Below are positions 31,204 to 40,766 of a stretch of 60,293 bases of DNA, piece by piece; position 1 is the stretch's first letter, and every line of letters starts with the position of its first letter. Under the pieces are notes generated by a model that was not told where the DNA came from, did not search any database, and saw only the letters and a list, made by a program, of their open reading frames with translations. This DNA is from a bacterium (GTDB taxonomy: Bacteria > UBA4055). Location of the stretch: NCBI GenBank assembly GCA_029559475.1, contig JAKQBN010000006.1, positions 1 to 60,293 of the forward strand, given 5' to 3'. Both the position numbers and the translations under genes were made by a program.

Positions 31204-32211
31204 ATGAAAAGAATATTATACATAGTATGTTTCTTCGCATTATTTCAGATGATAAGTGCGAATGCTGAAGCAGGAAAGATTTCAGAAAATGAATTTTTAA
31301 ATAGTTCAGGCAGTGGTGACTTCGCTTTTCTAGGATTCGGCAAGAAGGATACCGATAGTGACGGGATCGCTGATGAATCCGATTCATGCCCGGGCGAAGC
31401 CGAGGATTACGACGGTTTTGAAGACAGCGACGGATGTCCGGAACTTGACAATGATAAGGACGGTGTCAGAGATAAGGAAGATAAATGTCCGCAGGCGGCT
31501 GAGGACATTGACGGTTATCTTGATAGTGACGGTTGCCCCGACGATGATAATGACGGCGACGGTATTAAAGATGCTTTAGACAAATGTCCCACAGAACCCG
31601 AAGATTTCGACGGTACCGAAGATGATGACGGATGCCCTGAGTACGACAATGACGGGGACGGAGTTCAGGACAGTACCGATAAATGTCCTAAAGAAGCTGA
31701 GGATTTTGACGGATGGATGGATAAAGACGGTTGCCCGGAAGACGACAACGACGCAGACGGAATAGCAGACGATATAGATAAATGCCCGGATGTTGCTGAA
31801 AGCCTGAACGGATTCGAGGATAATGACGGATGTCCTGACGCCGTGATCTTAAAAAAGGACGAGAGGATAATTCTAAATAATATTTATTTCAAATTGGATT
31901 CGGCAGAGCTTGAGCCTGAATCTTTCGAAACTCTCAATTCACTGAAAAGGATATTTCTTGATAATCCGAAAATAATTGTCCAGATAGAGGGGCATACCGA
32001 CAATCAGGGCAGCGATGAATATAACATCGATCTCTCAAACCGCAGAGCCGAATCAGTAGTGAAGTACATTATCGAAGTACTCGGTGTAAGCAGTTCTCAG
32101 ATAAGTTCTATAGGACTCGGAGAATCAAAACCGATAGCCAGCAACAACACATCAAAAGGCAGGGCAGAGAACAGAAGGATAGAGTTCAGAGTTGTATCGA
32201 ACGAAAAGTGA
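31204..32211 (+). CDS. OmpA-family protein with thrombospondin type 3 repeats
   Basis: This 335-residue protein has a signal peptide (about residues 1-23, ending ANAEA). Residues 49-213 hold five calcium-binding thrombospondin-3 repeats of 33 residues, each with a DxDxDG-type loop and a DKCP/DGCP pair. Residues 214-335 form an OmpA C-terminal domain with IEGHTDNQGSDEYNIDLSNR and GRAENRRIEF, which binds diaminopimelate in peptidoglycan. No beta barrel is present, so it is probably periplasmic and links wall to surface. It follows ligA by 16 bases, so it may share that transcript. A longer paralogue follows. Confidence 0.9.
   Translation: MKRILYIVCFFALFQMISANAEAGKISENEFLNSSGSGDFAFLGFGKKDTDSDGIADESDSCPGEAEDYDGFEDSDGCPELDNDKDGVRDKEDKCPQAAEDIDGYLDSDGCPDDDNDGDGIKDALDKCPTEPEDFDGTEDDDGCPEYDNDGDGVQDSTDKCPKEAEDFDGWMDKDGCPEDDNDADGIADDIDKCPDVAESLNGFEDNDGCPDAVILKKDERIILNNIYFKLDSAELEPESFETLNSLKRIFLDNPKIIVQIEGHTDNQGSDEYNIDLSNRRAESVVKYIIEVLGVSSSQISSIGLGESKPIASNNTSKGRAENRRIEFRVVSNEK
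31348..31842 (+). repeat. Five tandem thrombospondin-3 coding repeats (99-base units)
   Basis: The coding sequence repeats every 99 bases (33 codons) with changes mostly at third positions and in the variable loop residues. The repeated pattern is GDGIxDxxDKCPxExEDFDGxxDxDGCP. Confidence 0.8.
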
Positions 32212-32275
32212 TCAAAATGTGTCTGAATTAATAAGATTTGTTAAACAGACTCATTGATCAAATATGCTTTTATGC

Positions 32276-32304
32276 TTGACTATTAATCAACTTTTGGTTA
32301 ATTT
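32276..32304 (+). promoter_or_regulatory. Predicted promoter of the second OmpA gene
   Basis: TTGACT (32276-32281) and TAATTT (32299-32304) have a 17-base spacer. The predicted start leaves a leader of about 40 bases. This promoter would serve the barrel-OmpA protein and probably the chaperone-like cassette behind it. Confidence 0.5.
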
Positions 32305-32349
32305 TTAAAGCTGTATTAATTAGTTTGGAAATAAGGAAAGGAAAGTATA

Positions 32350-34167
32350 ATGCGTATGAATTTAAAAAAGCTTGTTTTAACTGCAGCGTTTCTTCTTTGT
32401 TTCGCTGCTTTCGGAAGATCTCTGACAGGATATTCAGGACTGATAAAACTTATCGATCCGGTAACTCACGGCAGCGGATTTTTTTCTGTCAGTCTTTCAA
32501 CTCTTCTCGGACCGGGAGCTGTGGATGACAGTACTATTGTAAGTTCATCAAATATCAACAAATATTTTCAGTCCACAAATCATATTTCAGCCAATGTTAG
32601 TCTTGGGAATTATATTGACATAGGAGCTAAAGCCTCATTTGCGATTGATTCAAGAGATATAGCAGATAAAAATTATAGCCTTACGAAACTTAATAATCTT
32701 GAAGTTGGGATCCGAGGCTCATTTAAAAGAACGGGATTTTTCAGGTCTGGATTATACCTTTACGGGCTTGTTCCTGTTTTGAAAAATACCGGCGACATCG
32801 AGGATTTTGAAAATTTCCGTGAAGTGCCGAACGATACTCTCAGATATTATAACCACAGAAAATTCAGCGATGAATTTTTATTCAATCCCATGGCAAGTTT
32901 CGGAGCAAAAATCCTTGCTTCGTTCGGAACCGATGATTTCAGAGTTCTTATGAACGGCGGTTATCTTTGGAGAACTGCAACAGAAAAAGAGCCGTCAGGC
33001 CAGCAGATTGATATACTGCCGGACGCATTCACAATGAACGCCGGGATGGAATACACTTTCAATGAATATGTCGGAATGTTCCTCGAGTGGGACGGAGAAA
33101 TGCTTTTAGACAAAAAGACAGGCGATATTGTTAAGACGGTTTCGGAAGAGGAGTTTATTCATAAAGCGGGCGGCGGGTTCAAGTTCGTAGGCAACAAATA
33201 TTTTTCCGCGACCGTAGGGGGTTTCGGAGGACTGGCACAGGAGGATACTCCGGACTGGCAGGTTTATACGGGAATTACCCTTACAGGCAACTGGATAGAT
33301 CCCGACACTGACAAGGACGGAATTCTAGATGAGGTCGATTCGTGCCCGACTGAGCCGGAGGATTTTGACGGATTCGAAGATACTGACGGCTGTCCCGAAG
33401 CGGACAACGATAAGGACGGTATAACAGATCTAAATGATAAATGCCCGCTGGTTCCAGAAGACCTGGACGGGTATCAGGATGATGACGGCTGCCCGGAAGA
33501 CGATAACGACGGGGACGGTATAAAAGATTCATACGACAAATGTCCTAACGAGCCGGAGGATTTCGACGGCTACGAAGATCAGGACGGATGTCCCGAATTC
33601 GACAACGACGGCGACGGAATAAAAGATGATACTGATAAATGTCCTTTAGAACCTGAAGATTTTGACGGATGGCTTGACTCCGACGGCTGCCCGGAATTCG
33701 ACAACGACGGTGACGGAATAAGAGATGAATCGGATAAATGTCCCAACGAAGCCGAAAGCTTTAACGGATTCGAAGACTCCGACGGCTGCCCCGATGCCGT
33801 AATTCTAAAGAAAGATGAAAGGATCGTACTGGATAATATTTACTTCAAACTCGCTTCGGCGGAGCTCGAGACTGAATCTTTCGAGACTCTCAATTCTTTG
33901 AAAAGGGTATTTCTTGATAATCCGGGCATTATAGTACAGATAGAAGGGCATACCGACAGTCAGGGAAGCGACAGCTACAACCTCGACCTTTCAAGAAGAC
34001 GCGCAGGCACAGTTGCAGATTATATTGTGAACGTTCTCGGAGTAAGCAGCGGTCAGGTAAGTTCTGTAGGATTCGGAGAATCAAAACCGGTAGCGGATAA
34101 CAAAACATCTAAAGGAAGAGCTCAGAACAGAAGGATTGAGTTCAGAGTAGTATCGACCGGAAGATAA
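32350..34167 (+). CDS. OmpA-family outer membrane protein with barrel-like domain and thrombospondin-3 repeats
   Basis: This 605-residue protein has a signal peptide (about 1-22). The N-terminal ~300 residues have short alternating hydrophobic strands and many Gly and aromatic residues, as in an outer membrane beta barrel. Residues 319-482 hold five 33-residue thrombospondin-3 repeats. Residues 483-605 are an OmpA peptidoglycan-binding domain (IEGHTDSQGSDSYNLDLSRR, then GRAQNRRIEF). The repeat and OmpA portions are about 80% identical to the preceding gene by eye, so one arose from the other by duplication. It probably anchors the outer membrane to the wall. The next gene follows after 18 bases. 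Confidence 0.9.
   Translation: MRMNLKKLVLTAAFLLCFAAFGRSLTGYSGLIKLIDPVTHGSGFFSVSLSTLLGPGAVDDSTIVSSSNINKYFQSTNHISANVSLGNYIDIGAKASFAIDSRDIADKNYSLTKLNNLEVGIRGSFKRTGFFRSGLYLYGLVPVLKNTGDIEDFENFREVPNDTLRYYNHRKFSDEFLFNPMASFGAKILASFGTDDFRVLMNGGYLWRTATEKEPSGQQIDILPDAFTMNAGMEYTFNEYVGMFLEWDGEMLLDKKTGDIVKTVSEEEFIHKAGGGFKFVGNKYFSATVGGFGGLAQEDTPDWQVYTGITLTGNWIDPDTDKDGILDEVDSCPTEPEDFDGFEDTDGCPEADNDKDGITDLNDKCPLVPEDLDGYQDDDGCPEDDNDGDGIKDSYDKCPNEPEDFDGYEDQDGCPEFDNDGDGIKDDTDKCPLEPEDFDGWLDSDGCPEFDNDGDGIRDESDKCPNEAESFNGFEDSDGCPDAVILKKDERIVLDNIYFKLASAELETESFETLNSLKRVFLDNPGIIVQIEGHTDSQGSDSYNLDLSRRRAGTVADYIVNVLGVSSGQVSSVGFGESKPVADNKTSKGRAQNRRIEFRVVSTGR
33304..33795 (+). repeat. Five tandem thrombospondin-3 coding repeats (99-base units)
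   Basis: This is the same 99-base repeat as in the gene before, five units, more uniform than the first set (three successive units with EPEDFDG). Confidence 0.8.
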
Positions 34168-34185: not shown

Positions 34186-34998
34186 ATGACCCGTTCTGAA
34201 AAAAGTAAAAAAGACGATTTCGACATCAACAGATCCGAAATATTCAATTCCGATTATTATTTCGACGACATAATAGAAGAATTGAGCGAATCAGGACTTT
34301 ATTCTGAAGACGATATAGCCCGTAAATCGGAAATGAATCCAGCGCCGCCGGCACAGGAAAGCAGCGACAGGATCTCTTCAAAGATCGATGATGTTAATAA
34401 AGACATCAATCAGAGGATACAGAAGATCGAGCAGAAAGTTTTAAATTCCGGCGAAATGCTGTTCAACACAAAGAACGAATTAATACAGGCCGTCCAGAAA
34501 ATGCAGAGCAGCCTTTTGCTGATGAAATTCGAAACGGAAGAAGGCATAAATAAGCTGAACGATCTCTTTAAAGAGAAACTTACAGCGGACTGCGTAAAAG
34601 AAAAAGCCTTTGAGGAATTGTACGTACAGCTTGAATCATACAAAAGAAATTTTATTTTCGCGGCAATGAAACCGATAATTAATGATCTGCTGCTTTTTTA
34701 CGACAGGATCAACATCGAGATCGATAACGCTTTAGAAGAAAAAGCCGAATGTCCGAAACTTATATCATTCAGAGACGAGCTTCTAGAAATTCTCTACAGG
34801 AACGACATTATTCCGGTAGAAAAAAGTACTGAGGGTTCAAAATTCAATCCTGAAAAAAGCAATGCTGTTGATAAATTCGATACTGAGGATCCGGAACTTG
34901 ACAATACGGTTAAAAGGGTCTTGAGAACCGGTTTTATGAGGAATAATCAGCAGATCAGACCGGAACTTGTACAAATAAATAAACTGATCACGAAGTAG
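34186..34998 (+). CDS. GrpE-like nucleotide exchange factor
   Basis: This 270-residue protein has no signal peptide. After a disordered acidic N-terminus (1-60) and a long coiled coil (about 60-130), residues 135-266 match GrpE in layout. KEKAFEELYVQLESYKRNF gives the long helix entering a four-helix bundle. FDTEDPELDNTVKRVLRTGF and IRPELVQI match the final beta domain (compare the usual VLRxGYxxxxRxLRPAxVxV). GrpE proteins release ADP from Hsp70. The nearby Hsp70-like gene, two genes on, supports the call. It differs from housekeeping GrpE by the long N-terminal extension. An AGAGGTG site precedes ATG 34186. It lies 18 bases after the OmpA gene. Confidence 0.72.
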   Translation: MTRSEKSKKDDFDINRSEIFNSDYYFDDIIEELSESGLYSEDDIARKSEMNPAPPAQESSDRISSKIDDVNKDINQRIQKIEQKVLNSGEMLFNTKNELIQAVQKMQSSLLLMKFETEEGINKLNDLFKEKLTADCVKEKAFEELYVQLESYKRNFIFAAMKPIINDLLLFYDRINIEIDNALEEKAECPKLISFRDELLEILYRNDIIPVEKSTEGSKFNPEKSNAVDKFDTEDPELDNTVKRVLRTGFMRNNQQIRPELVQINKLITK

Positions 34999-35008
34999 GT
35001 AAGGCTCT

Positions 35009-35542
35009 ATGTCCATTATAGATAAGCTTAAAGAGAAACTGAACCTTAAAAAAGAGAAGGTTTCTCATCTCGATGAAATAAAGCTGAAAAGAAGTTCTCA
35101 GCTATATGAGGCAGCTGTAGCTTATTACAAAAGGAAGGATTACGAGAACAGCAGAAAGTACTTCGAGAAAGCCCTGCAGTACGATCCTGATAATCAGGAT
35201 ATCAAGCATAATCTTACCGTCGTTATAAAGCAGATAGCTTTGATCGAAGAGGAGAACCGGTCAAGGCAGGAAAAAAAGAACATAGCCGTGAATAAAGTGA
35301 TGTCCCAGGAAAGCGAAGACATACTCCGGGAAGCAGCCAACACAGAGGAAAAAGGAAACGATTTCTATCTAAAAGCGCTGAGACTCGATTCGGATTCAAC
35401 TCAGGACGAGATTGTAGCCAGAATAGACACAGAATTCAGAAAATGGCGCACGAGAATAAACTCACCGAACGTTAAAATGCGTTCTGAAGCGGAAGAGATG
35501 CTGGCCATTATATCTCAGGCCAGAAGAAAATTACTGAAATAA
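35009..35542 (+). CDS. TPR protein with degenerate J-like C-terminus
   Basis: This 177-residue cytosolic protein has a TPR-like helical pair at about residues 30-65 (YEAAVAYYKRKDYENSRKYF, then ALQYDPDNQD) and a charged linker. The last ~60 residues have the helix pattern of a J domain: STQDEIVARIDTEFRKW, then EAEEMLAIISQARRKLL. The HPD tripeptide that stimulates Hsp70 is absent and replaced by RTRINSP. It may therefore bind the neighbouring Hsp70 without classical stimulation. The flanking GrpE-like and Hsp70-like genes support a chaperone role, but the J assignment is inference. It lies between them with gaps of 10 bases each side. Confidence 0.55.
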   Translation: MSIIDKLKEKLNLKKEKVSHLDEIKLKRSSQLYEAAVAYYKRKDYENSRKYFEKALQYDPDNQDIKHNLTVVIKQIALIEEENRSRQEKKNIAVNKVMSQESEDILREAANTEEKGNDFYLKALRLDSDSTQDEIVARIDTEFRKWRTRINSPNVKMRSEAEEMLAIISQARRKLLK

Positions 35543-35552
35543 GGACCCTTAT

Positions 35553-38120
35553 ATGAAGATGATAGGCATAGATCTGGGAACGACTAATTCAGCTATAGCG
35601 ATGGTAAACGAGTTCGGTAAAGCTGAAATAATACCCAATAAAGAAGGCGAGCGTATAACTCCCTCAGTCGTTCTATTCGATGACGACCAGATCATAGTGG
35701 GAAGTATAGCGAAACAGTCATGCGTAGCAGAACCGGAGAGAACTGTGTCTTCCATAAAATCCCATATGGGTTCAAGCGATTTTAAATTCGAGTATAAAGA
35801 AAACGAATATAAACCCGAAGATATTTCCGCTATGATATTAAGAAAGCTGATAGAGGACGCGGAAGCATTTTTGAACGATAAGATAACCGATGTTGTGATT
35901 ACGGTTCCGGCTTATTTCAACGATAAGCAGAGAAAGGCTACGGTCGATGCAGGTAAAATATCGGGTGTTAATGTGGCTCAGATAATAAATGAACCGACAG
36001 CAGCAGCACTTACTTACGGAATAGATAAAACCGTCAGCCAGAAGATCCTAGTTTACGATCTTGGCGGCGGAACATTTGACGTTACTCTGATGAAGGTTGA
36101 CAACGGTAATTTCGAGGTTCTTGCAAGCGACGGTGACAGACAGCTCGGCGGTAATAATTTCGACGAAAAGCTGATGATCTATCTGAACGACAAGTTCAAG
36201 CAGCAGCACGAAATAGACCTCTTCGAAGATCCTGTACTCATACAGGATCTGAGGCTGAAAGCCGAGAACGCTAAAAAAGTGCTTTCCACAAAGCTGAGCA
36301 CTACAGTATATCTTTCAGCGAAAGGAAAATCAGCAAGAATTACGGTAACGAGAAAGCTGTTCACCGATCTTCTGGCCGATTTTATAACAAGGACAGAATT
36401 ACTGATCAACGCAGTAATGACAGATGCCGGACTTCAGTGGAAAGACGTTGATCAGATCCTTCTGGTAGGAGGTTCAACAAGGATACCAGCAGTTATCGAT
36501 ATGATATCAAGAGTAACCGGCAAGAAGCCTTCTATGCAGGTTAATCCCGACGAAGCAGTAGCTTTGGGAGCATCAATACAGGCAGGAATAATCTGCGCAA
36601 AAGACCAGACTGAAAAAGTCAACGATATGGTCAGAATGAAATACGGCGCGATCAATGTTTCAGATGTTACCGCTCACAGCTTCGGAGCGATAACTCTCGA
36701 TGAATTCGATAATAAAAGAAATGCGATTATAATTCCGAAGAACAGCAAGATACCTGTTCGAAAAAGCCAGATATTCTACACTTCAACGGCAAATCAGACT
36801 CAGGTTAAGATGGTCGTTATTCAGGGTGAGGACCCGGATCCAGAATTCTGTACGACGATCGGTACTACGACCCTCGATTTTCCGCCAAAACCGGAGAATT
36901 CCCCGATTATTTTCAATTACGAATATGACGTTAACGGTATCATTCACGCTACCGCTAAAGATCCCGATACAGGTAAGAAAAGCGAAATTCAGATCGCAAG
37001 AGAAGGAGCTTTAACTAAAGAGCAGATAGATAAAAAGAAAGATAAACTGAATATGATGTTCCCGAGACGAAGGGAATATATTACAAAACAGTCTTTTTCC
37101 GAGGACACGCTTGAAAGTGTTAATGCGCAGCAGATCGCGCGTAAAGATTCCGGAGCGAGTCTAGTAACTGATGTTTTTGATTCTGTAAGTGAGAGCGAAT
37201 CCTTCGATAGCAGACAGCAGATCTATAAAGATCAGAGCAAGAATGAATCAATTGATGATGTGCTCGAGAAATCTGAAATAGAAACGATAACGGCCGACGA
37301 GCTGAAAAAGCAGATAACTGAAGAATCGTCTATACTCGAAAATCCGTTCTTGCATGAAATAAAACCTGATATAAAACCAGCTCAGAAGAATACTGAGGAA
37401 GTTATTATAAATGATAATTTCATAGAACGTTTCGATACCAATAAAACCCCGGTCAGGGAACTGTCGGACAATGAACAGATAGAAAAGATCGACAAGAAGA
37501 TAGAATCGATGTTCAGTGATGAAACAGAAAAAAAGATTTCAAAAAAGATCGTGGAAAAAGAAAGCTTCGACGATTCTATAGATCAATTGTTCACAAGTCC
37601 CAAAAAAGAAACTCCAAAAGCAGTAGCAGTTCCCGAGGTGGAGGAAGATGACATAGATTCGATCTTTGAATCATTTGAAGAGGCTAAGATAAGCAAAGTC
37701 GAAGAAGCTCCCGAAAAACCCGTCAGCAAACCGAAGGAGTTAGATGAAATCAGCATAAAAGACATCGAGAAGAAACCTGAAGATAATGATTTCGACAGCG
37801 TTTCGATGGAAGATTCATCTGTAACAGAAAGCCAGTCATTCGATGATGAGCTTGACGAGATCGGCAAGTCCGAATTCATAATAGACAGGAGCGAATATCT
37901 CACAGACGAAGATATAATGAGGATCAAAGAAGAAGGCAGCATAAAAAGCGGAATTGACGCGTCGGATATTACTGCTGGTAAAGAGGAATCATTCACAGAG
38001 GACGATGTGAACCAGCTGTTTTCTTCAGCCGATTCAAAAAAGCTTGTTCAGAATGAAAACAGATCCGATAAATCAAAAACGTTAAAGAAAGATGATATAA
38101 GTGACTGGATCGATGAATAA
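35553..38120 (+). CDS. Lidless Hsp70-family protein with long acidic C-terminal tail
   Basis: This 855-residue protein has a complete Hsp70 ATPase domain (residues 1-360): GIDLGTTNSA, NEPTAAAL, DLGGGTFDVT, and LLVGGSTRIP. The usual VLLLDVTP linker reads INVSDVTA (about 366-374). A beta substrate-binding domain follows (to about 500), ending near DPDTGKKSEIQI. The alpha-helical lid expected next is missing. Instead there is an acidic, lysine/glutamate-rich tail of about 340 residues. The tail contains six short motifs [E/Q]SF followed by acidic or small residues (residues 513, 549, 670, 706, 761 and 812) and ends KKDDISDWIDE. It is cytosolic, with no signal peptide. It overlaps pyrC by 8 bases. 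Whether a separate housekeeping dnaK exists is outside this window. Confidence 0.9.
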   Translation: MKMIGIDLGTTNSAIAMVNEFGKAEIIPNKEGERITPSVVLFDDDQIIVGSIAKQSCVAEPERTVSSIKSHMGSSDFKFEYKENEYKPEDISAMILRKLIEDAEAFLNDKITDVVITVPAYFNDKQRKATVDAGKISGVNVAQIINEPTAAALTYGIDKTVSQKILVYDLGGGTFDVTLMKVDNGNFEVLASDGDRQLGGNNFDEKLMIYLNDKFKQQHEIDLFEDPVLIQDLRLKAENAKKVLSTKLSTTVYLSAKGKSARITVTRKLFTDLLADFITRTELLINAVMTDAGLQWKDVDQILLVGGSTRIPAVIDMISRVTGKKPSMQVNPDEAVALGASIQAGIICAKDQTEKVNDMVRMKYGAINVSDVTAHSFGAITLDEFDNKRNAIIIPKNSKIPVRKSQIFYTSTANQTQVKMVVIQGEDPDPEFCTTIGTTTLDFPPKPENSPIIFNYEYDVNGIIHATAKDPDTGKKSEIQIAREGALTKEQIDKKKDKLNMMFPRRREYITKQSFSEDTLESVNAQQIARKDSGASLVTDVFDSVSESESFDSRQQIYKDQSKNESIDDVLEKSEIETITADELKKQITEESSILENPFLHEIKPDIKPAQKNTEEVIINDNFIERFDTNKTPVRELSDNEQIEKIDKKIESMFSDETEKKISKKIVEKESFDDSIDQLFTSPKKETPKAVAVPEVEEDDIDSIFESFEEAKISKVEEAPEKPVSKPKELDEISIKDIEKKPEDNDFDSVSMEDSSVTESQSFDDELDEIGKSEFIIDRSEYLTDEDIMRIKEEGSIKSGIDASDITAGKEESFTEDDVNQLFSSADSKKLVQNENRSDKSKTLKKDDISDWIDE

Positions 38121-39438
38121 AAAGATCAATAATACAAGCCTGGTCAGGCCTCTATTTAAAAAAACGGCAAAAAAACTTCTGATCAAAAACGGCACGATCG
38201 CTGATGCTTATTCTGATAAAGAATATACATCTGACATTCTGATACTTGACGGAATTATCGAAAAAATAAGCCCTAAAATTAAAGCAGACAAAGGCTGTGA
38301 TGTTATCGACGCGAAAGGAATGTATGTCAGCGCAGGATTTTTCGATATGCACGTTCATCTTAGAGTGCCAGGTAACGAACAGGCTGAAAACATCATTTCC
38401 GGAACCAATGCAGCTATGGCCGGAGGAGTTACTTCTCTCGTAGCTATGGCGAACACTATTCCGTGCGTAGATAATAAACTTCTTCTGAAGAGGAATCACG
38501 ATCAGGTAAAAGATCTTCTTGTTAACGTTCATCAGATCCCCGCAGTAACATTAAACAGGGAAGGCAAAATACTTGTAGAAATGGCTGAACTCGTAGAGAC
38601 CGGTGCGATCGCTTTTTCTGACGACGGAAGCGGGATACAATCTTCAGAAACGATGGTCCGAGCCTTAAAATGCGCAAAGAAACTCAAAATCCCGATCCTT
38701 GTCCATCCTGAAGATCATACGCTCCCGAAATGGGTAATGAACGAATCCCCGATTGCAAAAGAATTAAAGATGGCGTCCCAGCCGAATATAGGTGAAAGCA
38801 TTAACATTGCGCGCGACATCGAGATCGCAAGATACACCAAAGGTAAAGTCCATTTTCAGCATGTAAGCACAAAAGAAGGCGTAGATCTTGTAAGAAAAGC
38901 AAAGAAAGAAAAGCTTAATGTGACCTGTGAGGCAGCTCCCCATCACTTCTCTCTCACGGACGGGAAAGTCAGGACTTTATCTACAGATTTTAAGATGAGT
39001 CCGCCTTTAAGAACGCAGAAAGACGTTGATGCTTTACACAAAGGTCTCAAAGACGGAACAATAGATGTAATAGCGACCGATCATGCTCCCCACGCTCCTG
39101 AAAAAAAGAATCTCGAATTCGTTCTTGCTCCTTTCGGAGTAATCGGCCTTGAGACAATCCTCTCAGCCGGTATTACTTATCTTGTACGGCCGAAAAAACT
39201 TACTATGATAGAATTCTTAAAAAAAATAACTGTAAATCCGCGAAAGATACTTAATCTCGATCCGGATCTTTTAAAGAAGGGAAAGACTGCCGAACTGACG
39301 ATCTTCGATCCTGAACAGAAGTGGAAAGTGGACAGAAGAAAGATGAAATCGCTTTCGATAAATACCTGTTTCCACGGTGAAACGCATTACGGAAAAGTAA
39401 AATTCACGATCAATAACGGGAAGATATTCAAAGCTTGA
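38113..39438 (+). CDS. pyrC: Dihydroorotase
   Basis: This enzyme of about 441 residues (class I dihydroorotase/amidohydrolase fold) closes carbamoyl aspartate to dihydroorotate in pyrimidine synthesis. DMHVHLRVPG gives the HxH metal pair and the substrate Arg. HPED, FQHVSTKEG and ATDHAPHAPE supply the other metal and catalytic residues. The ATG at 38113 overlaps the Hsp70 stop region by 8 bases, and an in-frame GTG at 38101 is less likely. The ~20 residues before LLIKNG are longer than usual. It is the only pyrimidine gene here and is followed by a hairpin and the shikimate genes. Confidence 0.94.
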   Translation: MNKKINNTSLVRPLFKKTAKKLLIKNGTIADAYSDKEYTSDILILDGIIEKISPKIKADKGCDVIDAKGMYVSAGFFDMHVHLRVPGNEQAENIISGTNAAMAGGVTSLVAMANTIPCVDNKLLLKRNHDQVKDLLVNVHQIPAVTLNREGKILVEMAELVETGAIAFSDDGSGIQSSETMVRALKCAKKLKIPILVHPEDHTLPKWVMNESPIAKELKMASQPNIGESINIARDIEIARYTKGKVHFQHVSTKEGVDLVRKAKKEKLNVTCEAAPHHFSLTDGKVRTLSTDFKMSPPLRTQKDVDALHKGLKDGTIDVIATDHAPHAPEKKNLEFVLAPFGVIGLETILSAGITYLVRPKKLTMIEFLKKITVNPRKILNLDPDLLKKGKTAELTIFDPEQKWKVDRRKMKSLSINTCFHGETHYGKVKFTINNGKIFKA

Positions 39439-39457: not shown

Positions 39458-39484
39458 AAAAGGCGCACTAAGTTTGCGCCTTTT
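39458..39484 (+). promoter_or_regulatory. Hairpin between pyrC and the aroE start codon
   Basis: A perfect 10-bp stem (39458-39467 with 39475-39484) with a 7-base loop (39468-39474) ends 4 bases before the aroE ATG at 39489. The purine tract AAGAAGAGG (39445-39453) lies just upstream of the hairpin. It may be an intrinsic terminator for pyrC (its T run is within the stem), or a structure that brings the Shine-Dalgarno tract to the start codon, or both. Confidence 0.7.
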
Positions 39485-39488
39485 CATT

Positions 39489-40766
39489 ATGAAAAAATTA
39501 GCCGTAGCTGGAAATCCGATAGCTCACAGCAAAAGTCCCGAGATCTTCATGCAATTATGTGCGGCATCAGGGATTAAAGCCGATTATACGCGATTGAGCG
39601 TAAAAAGAATCGAGGAAATTTTTTATTTTGCAAAATGCTACGGTATTTCCGGATTCAACGTTACGTCTCCGTTCAAGGAAGATGTATACAGACTGATTGA
39701 TATATGCGATCAGCCTGCGAACGACGTGAAAGCGGTCAATGTGATGATCAACATAAAAGGTGTGTTCACCGGGTACAACACCGACGTTTACGGCGTAACG
39801 GACACTTTGAAAGCTCAGGGTGTAGATCCCTGCGGAAAAAAATGTGTAGTGGCAGGATCGGGTGGGGCATCCAGAGCCGCGGTATGTGCTTTAAAACAGC
39901 TCGGCGCGGATGTATATATCGGCAGCCGAACGGATAATAAGGCGGAACAGATATCTGATGAATTCAAATGCGGATTCTTGAAATTCGAGCATATGAAGAA
40001 AAACCTAAAGGACTCATATCTGTTCATTCCGGCTGTAACCGCGATCGATCCTGATTTGTGCTCAAATTTTCCCGGGCTGATAATATTTGAGGCGAATTAT
40101 AAAAATCCGGCATTCCGGAATGCACCATGTTCAAAATATATTAGCGGGTATGAATGGCTTGTCAATCAGGCTTCAAAATCATTCGAGCTGTTTTTTAAAA
40201 AAGAAGCTCCTCAGCTTAAATTAAAGGACATTGTTAAGAAATCTGAAGACAAAAGGATTATAGCGCTGATCGGCCCAACACTGAGTGGGAAGACTTCGAC
40301 CGGTGAAATTCTGGCGAAACTTTTAAATTATGAATTCTATGATTCAGACGCAGAGATAGAAAAATTCTGCCGAAAGGACATTTCAAAGATCTTTCAGGAA
40401 AACGGAGAAGATTATTTCAGACAGATCGAAGAGAAGATCATAGAGGAAATTCTGTGCAAAAACAATGCAGTTCTAGCAATCGGCGCGGGTGCAATTCAAT
40501 CAGAAAGCACAAGAAGAGTTTTAAAAGAAAAGTGTTTTACGATCCTGCTGGACGCAGATACTGAATTGGCTGTTTCAAGGTCACAGAAAGCCGATATAGA
40601 AAAAAGGCCGATGCTAAGCGGCGGATGCGTTTATGAAAGAACCGGAGATCTTTTTGAATTGAGGAAGGATAATTATTTCTCTGCTGCAAATCTGATAATA
40701 AGATCTGAAGAACCTTCTGCGGAAAAACAGGCAGAAAGAATTATAAGAGAGCTGAATGCAGGATAG
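39489..40766 (+). CDS. aroE-aroK: Shikimate dehydrogenase-shikimate kinase fusion
   Basis: This 425-residue bifunctional protein joins steps four and five of the shikimate pathway. Residues 1-250 are AroE: GNPIAHSKSP with Ser14 and Ser16, NVTSPFKED with the catalytic Lys, YNTDVYG with the catalytic Asp, and a nucleotide-binding GSGGASRAA. Residues about 258-425 are AroK: Walker A GPTLSGKTS, YFRQIEE for shikimate binding and a lid with KRPML. AroK's GGG loop reads GAGA. The ATG at 39489 is the only start that keeps the SKSP motif, apart from a TTG at 39474 inside the hairpin loop. Its end overlaps aroA by 11 bases. Confidence 0.88.
   Translation: MKKLAVAGNPIAHSKSPEIFMQLCAASGIKADYTRLSVKRIEEIFYFAKCYGISGFNVTSPFKEDVYRLIDICDQPANDVKAVNVMINIKGVFTGYNTDVYGVTDTLKAQGVDPCGKKCVVAGSGGASRAAVCALKQLGADVYIGSRTDNKAEQISDEFKCGFLKFEHMKKNLKDSYLFIPAVTAIDPDLCSNFPGLIIFEANYKNPAFRNAPCSKYISGYEWLVNQASKSFELFFKKEAPQLKLKDIVKKSEDKRIIALIGPTLSGKTSTGEILAKLLNYEFYDSDAEIEKFCRKDISKIFQENGEDYFRQIEEKIIEEILCKNNAVLAIGAGAIQSESTRRVLKEKCFTILLDADTELAVSRSQKADIEKRPMLSGGCVYERTGDLFELRKDNYFSAANLIIRSEEPSAEKQAERIIRELNAG

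Follow-up and report, generated by a model that had tools for sequence, protein, structure and literature searches.

A lidless Hsp70 encoded with a GrpE-like protein and a J-like TPR protein in a conserved cassette of Candidatus Delongbacteria

The cassette and its main departure from known Hsp70 systems

A 60,293-nucleotide stretch of a Candidatus Delongbacteria genome (GenBank assembly GCA_029559475.1, contig JAKQBN010000006.1; referred to below as the window) contains three contiguous genes for a GrpE-like protein (gene 1), a TPR protein with a C-terminal J-like domain (gene 2) and an Hsp70 that lacks its helical lid (gene 3). Judging from the alignments, the contact by which DnaJ classically triggers DnaK is gone from this cassette on both sides, with the HPD tripeptide missing from gene 2, and both the equivalent of DnaK Arg167 (R167) and the leucine linker missing from gene 3. 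We somewhat favor the reading that the Delongbacteria have in this cassette a private Hsp70 machine, additional to the canonical one and insulated from the housekeeping DnaJ. A previous reading of the DNA alone (the sequence-only reading) had described the trio, and its description is borne out by the gene coordinates, Pfam matches, HHalign comparison and conservation. That HPD and the R167 equivalent are both lost lies beyond that description and is the more telling departure. The three open reading frames (ORFs) occupy positions 34186-38120, with gaps of 10 bases between them:

34186..34998, + strand: gene 1, GrpE-like nucleotide exchange factor of 270 residues, in which a motif near the N-terminus is conserved and the helical stalk is extended
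35009..35542, + strand: gene 2, TPR protein with a C-terminal J-like domain, 177 residues
35553..38120, + strand: gene 3, lidless Hsp70, 855 residues

The Hsp70 has lost the residues on which a J protein acts

Gene 3 is a member of the Hsp70 superfamily (478 bits against Pfam HSP70, cut-off 20.6) and falls below the NCBIfam equivalog cut-offs for DnaK (481.9 vs 648 and 479.3 vs 822.55) and below the cut-off for HscA (358.4 vs 620 bits). Its parts are as follows:

35553..36596, + strand: nucleotide-binding domain, in which the equivalents of DnaK K70, E171 and T199 are retained and the subdomain IIB loop is six residues shorter than that of DnaK
35979..35981, + strand: codon for Gln143, which aligns with DnaK Arg167, the residue contacted by HPD
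36618..36668, + strand: interdomain linker, by alignment about 8 residues longer than that of DnaK and without LLL
36669..37013, + strand: substrate-binding beta domain, by alignment to DnaK
37014..37076, + strand: remnant of helix A that runs to PRRRE, the point of lid truncation
37077..38117, + strand: acidic tail of 347 residues with conserved blocks EDSSVTESQSFDDELDEIGKSEFIIDRSEYLTDEDI and ESFTEDDVNQLFSS and a C-terminal DWIDE

At the R167 site the 10 aligned Delongbacteria orthologs of gene 3 all have Gln, whereas each of the 26 canonical sequences checked has Arg. In 10/10 orthologs a longer and largely polar stretch takes the place of the VLLLDV segment, and in 10/10 the homology to Hsp70 ends after helix A, so that the helical lid (substrate-binding domain alpha) is absent. 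The full ATPase domain, missing lid, changed linker and long acidic tail of the sequence-only reading are thus upheld by alignment. The substrate-binding beta domain is strongly conserved, and with a profile of it the scores of gene 3 and of canonical DnaK lie over 100 bits apart. In the known system, the D35-R167 pair is the key contact of the J protein with DnaK, and alteration of R167 leaves stimulation by DnaJ ineffective (PMC7289447); the contacts described are H33-L391, P34-P419 and D35-R167/Q378, and altering HPD abolished stimulation in every system tested (reviewed in PMC8215388).

The tail has an isoelectric point of 4.3 and a net charge of -48, and DWI(D/S) stands at or near the C-terminus in 10/10 aligned orthologs, including two with short tails. 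A motif, (T/S)E(D/E)(D/E)VN(Q/E)LF, which lies within 37077-38117 in the window, recurs in most of the long Hsp70 tails at a level above that in shuffled tails; we take it to resemble the FliM-type EIDALL peptide. The conserved tail segment has no other occurrence in the genome of the window.

The J-like domain of gene 2 lacks HPD

The AlphaFold model of gene 2 (mean predicted local distance difference test score, pLDDT, 85.6) begins with the two helices of the TPR, continues with one long helix, and has at its C-terminus three helices ordered as in a J domain. These correspond to the following positions:

35066..35182, + strand: TPR helix pair (Pfam TPR_2, 35.4 bits; model helices 20-41 and 45-58)
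35357..35533, + strand: J-like domain of three helices, without HPD (HHalign; model helices 117-123, 132-149 and 155-175)
35456..35470, + strand: loop INSPN between helices II and III, at the canonical place of HPD (position taken from the model)

The J-like domain comprises the C-terminal 69 residues. Searches with Pfam DnaJ matched only 4 of 11 single gene 2 orthologs, all below the cut-off (best E value 0.0015). A profile of the C-terminus aligned by HHalign to 28 true J domains gave a score of 30.5 with a probability of 80% over 53 columns; 100 column-shuffled copies reached 14.0 at most and the reversed alignment 10.7. By profile and by model, the C-terminus of gene 2 is a remote, degenerate J domain that shares the J-domain fold. 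The HPD tripeptide is absent from it in 11/11 orthologs. A Foldseek search with the gene 2 model returned TPR matches only, none with E < 0.001, and the J-like part is not probed by this search. Comparison of the J-like profile with solved structures yielded nothing meaningful.

Gene 1 is a divergent GrpE

The first gene had been proposed to be GrpE-like, and the Pfam profile places it within GrpE, at 39.8 bits against a cut-off of 25.8 over residues 121-266. It scores below the NCBIfam equivalog cut-offs for GrpE; among structures in the PDB, its profile match is to the GrpE entry 4ani (E value 0.00087). Two segments were delimited:

34234..34311, + strand: conserved N-terminal motif, NSDYYFDDIIEELSESGLYS, with N21, F26, D27, I29, G37, Y39 and S40 invariant in 10 orthologs
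34546..34983, + strand: GrpE head and beta domain (Pfam PF01025 match in the search of the source genome)

The conservation of NSDYYFDDIIEELSESGLYS suggests a possible short interaction motif. With PADLOC the sole match was a weak one between gene 1 and ZorA, of coiled-coil type, and this assignment was rejected.

The cassette is conserved as a unit

Thirteen Delongbacteria genomes were compared. Eleven of the 13 have gene 1, 11 have gene 2 and 12 have gene 3; the genomes without one of the cassette genes are fragmented assemblies (490 and 520 contigs). The order gene 1-gene 2-gene 3 is kept in all 10 loci for which the region is complete, even where the flanks differ, and the adjacency of the three genes is not accidental. 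An OmpA gene lies directly upstream in 8 of these loci. In the two most divergent lineages, G004 and G006, the OmpA genes do not adjoin the cassette; the G004 locus has only the downstream pyr genes in common with the others, and the G006 locus has no flank in common. The cassette itself is the conserved unit, and nothing else at the locus is constant. Ratios of nonsynonymous to synonymous substitution (dN/dS), computed for those close pairs in which dS is unsaturated, are 0.009-0.05 for the folded parts and 0.10-0.14 for the gene 3 tail; the other pairs have saturated dS and low dN. Purifying selection on the cassette is strong, and the observation is far above chance.

A wider search of 386 genomes with the J-like profile found no cassette outside the phylum and gave only four weak matches there. 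Upon inspection, two of these were ordinary, true J domains, one belonged to a ribosomal-protein operon and one was unrelated.

The position of the cassette bears on one further explanation, that it is a chaperone set dedicated to the neighboring OmpA/TSP3 outer-membrane proteins or to the cell surface, for example by holding them before export. The frequent upstream OmpA gene speaks for this explanation, and in the window the OmpA ORF ends at 34167, 18 bases before gene 1. Against it are the two lineages in which that adjacency is absent, and no signal peptide or membrane segment is visible in any of the three proteins. Adjacency to OmpA also says little because the block around the cassette contains NAD ligase, pyrimidine and shikimate genes as well; it is a weak pointer to the client. 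We regard a surface role as improbable. Of the sequence-only suggestion of a dedicated and possibly surface- or wall-linked system, the dedicated character thus stands and the surface link does not.

A separate canonical set in the same genome

The genome of the window also has a canonical set at other places. A DnaK of 642 residues with a lid and the VLLLDV linker is encoded on contig 42, and a grpE gene adjoins dnaJ on contig 80. Most genomes of the family have both the canonical and the cassette kind of Hsp70; G006 has two canonical DnaKs. The cassette is not a grpE-dnaK-dnaJ operon, since its gene order differs, the Hsp70 and its J-like partner are both altered and the canonical genes lie on those other contigs. 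The departure from the usual operon in order, domain content and neighbors had been recognized correctly.

Proposed mechanism

We infer that the three proteins form one machine. From its retained catalytic residues, gene 3 is predicted to bind and hydrolyze ATP; gene 1 would be its own nucleotide exchange factor, and gene 2 would stand in the place of the J protein, its TPR serving as an adaptor for the client or for the Hsp70 tail. Both partners lack the J trigger, in which the HPD aspartate acts on DnaK R167 and on the linker leucines, and gene 3 should therefore be deaf to the housekeeping DnaJ. Its cycle may be set off in a different way by gene 2, through another contact, or proceed at a basal rate for which gene 1 sets the pace. 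From the general understanding of Hsp70s, a groove without a lid should bind loosely and exchange rapidly. The groove of gene 3 should hold clients in this manner or else remain accessible to clients that are folded or assembled. The acidic tail and its short conserved motifs would serve to tether partners.

Several points weigh against a private, insulated machine. The J-like assignment of gene 2 comes from profile comparison at the probability given above; the assignment of one precise residue opposite HPD hinges on the alignment, and the alignments disagree on the J-side residue. Gene 1 fits GrpE, yet its structure model is poor (pLDDT 66). Searches for a canonical DnaK were negative in G004 and G009, two metagenome-assembled genomes (94% and 86% complete) that have the cassette Hsp70; this could be a gap in the assemblies, or the cassette could have more than a private job. 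A charge swap between the partners (Arg in the J-like domain, Asp or Gln in the Hsp70) is not claimed, as the alignments differ in the J residue that they place opposite the site.

The absence of HPD from gene 2 could also be explained if this protein were a pseudo-J regulator like mitochondrial Pam16, braking or positioning the housekeeping DnaJ on gene 3 without itself triggering the ATPase. Published work has established Pam16 as a J-like component of the import motor whose partner there is a J protein, and by Pfam the genome of the window has only one HPD J protein. Such a regulator would nevertheless act on an Hsp70 without the R167 equivalent and the linker leucines on which an HPD J protein acts, and no second J gene is present in the cassette. 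Gene 2 further differs from Pam16 in having a TPR and in lacking a membrane anchor. We consider this explanation unlikely.

A parallel in another phylum

A profile of the substrate-binding domain was built from the Delongbacteria group and a group from family f136, which by our own inference is probably Planctomycetota, and was run over the 386 genomes. It scored about 200 bits in 12 Delongbacteria and 2 f136 genomes only, and the next score was 83.6 bits, for a canonical DnaK; from this gap, no further close kin of this type of substrate domain is present in the sample. The Hsp70s of the two f136 genomes (G284 and G147) are lidless, 527 and 558 residues long, and have Asp at the R167 site; the linker leucines are lost and the IIB loop is short. 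Beside them are genes (L099:10408-11454 and L100:5207-6250) in which a J-like domain without HPD is fused to an MshEN domain, and these J-like domains score 17.7 to 19.1 bits against Pfam DnaJ, below the cut-off. MshEN domains bind cyclic di-GMP (c-di-GMP). A third genome of the same phylum, G421, has one J-like gene without HPD (1082 residues) between two lidless Hsp70s, and one of these Hsp70s (L193:5387-7906, + strand), in which the R167 site is Asp, is joined to a Ser/Thr protein kinase domain as a fusion.

The f136 pair resembles the cassette in its lost lid and linker leucines, replaced R167, short IIB loop and HPD-less J-like neighbor; it differs in having no adjoining GrpE-like or TPR gene and no acidic tail. 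In a tree, the Delongbacteria, f136 and canonical Hsp70s form three separate groups, and this tree, lacking an outgroup root, is compatible with either one or two origins of the lidless type. The parallel is drawn from few genomes, which were reached by tracing individual search matches and not by counting systematically. The pairs in G284, G147 and G421 count in favor of the private machine. We more tentatively suggest a bacterial class of Hsp70 in which the Hsp70 and its J-like partner have jointly given up the HPD-R167-linker switch, a private pair driving or gating the lidless Hsp70 through a different contact; it may be represented in the Delongbacteria, where a dedicated GrpE goes with it, and separately in a second phylum.

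The kinase fusion is also one of the observations that would suit a quite different role, in which gene 3 is an actin-like ATPase switch or scaffold and no longer a folding chaperone, and in which genes 1 and 2 and the tail recruit partners for signaling or assembly. The loss of the lid, the changed linker and the long tail with conserved motifs are all consistent with such a role. The strong conservation of the substrate-binding beta domain and the retention of a GrpE-like factor point instead to cycles of client binding, and we think a pure switch or scaffold rather unlikely.

The action of J domains through HPD on an Hsp70 arginine and linker is treated as invariant. The cassette offers a natural pair in which both sides of that contact are replaced under strong selection, at least in this phylum and apparently in another. 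Such a pair makes directly testable whether an Hsp70 and a J-like protein can be coupled by other means, and what role a lidless Hsp70 has in the cell.

Comparison with known systems

The cassette shares with the canonical DnaK-DnaJ-GrpE system an Hsp70 ATPase, a beta substrate domain and an exchange factor of the GrpE family; it differs in the absent lid, longer linker without LLL, R167 to Gln replacement, HPD-less J-like partner, IIB loop shorter by six residues and long acidic tail. Pam16 (Tim16) of the mitochondrial import motor, compared here by description, is likewise a J-like fold without HPD that works with an Hsp70; it has no TPR, is membrane-linked and acts with Pam18. In Myxococcus, SglK presumably has a neighboring GrpE homolog, and we know of no TPR/J-like trio for the SglK or StkA systems. 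SglK and StkA, also compared by description, resemble the cassette Hsp70 as DnaK-like proteins that have dedicated roles and occur in addition to an essential DnaK; SglK differs in that it rescues an E. coli dnaK mutant (PMC8265645). The HscA-HscB and HscC branches are similar in being specialized second Hsp70s with their own partner gene, but both keep the lid domain (PMC8215388), whereas gene 3 is lidless and lies below the HscA cut-offs.

Flanking genes

Upstream of the cassette, at 31204-34167, the window has two successive OmpA proteins with TSP3 repeats, the C-terminal halves of which are nearly alike; several relatives have one copy only. Downstream, the Hsp70 gene is overlapped at its 3' end by a dihydroorotase gene (38101-39438). 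Relatives have pyrR and pyrB (L044 and L101) or a pyrB-like gene between the Hsp70 and dihydroorotase genes, and these are missing in the window. An apparent fusion of shikimate dehydrogenase and shikimate kinase follows at 39474-40766, and then aroA-like and aroC-like genes, all annotated by eye.

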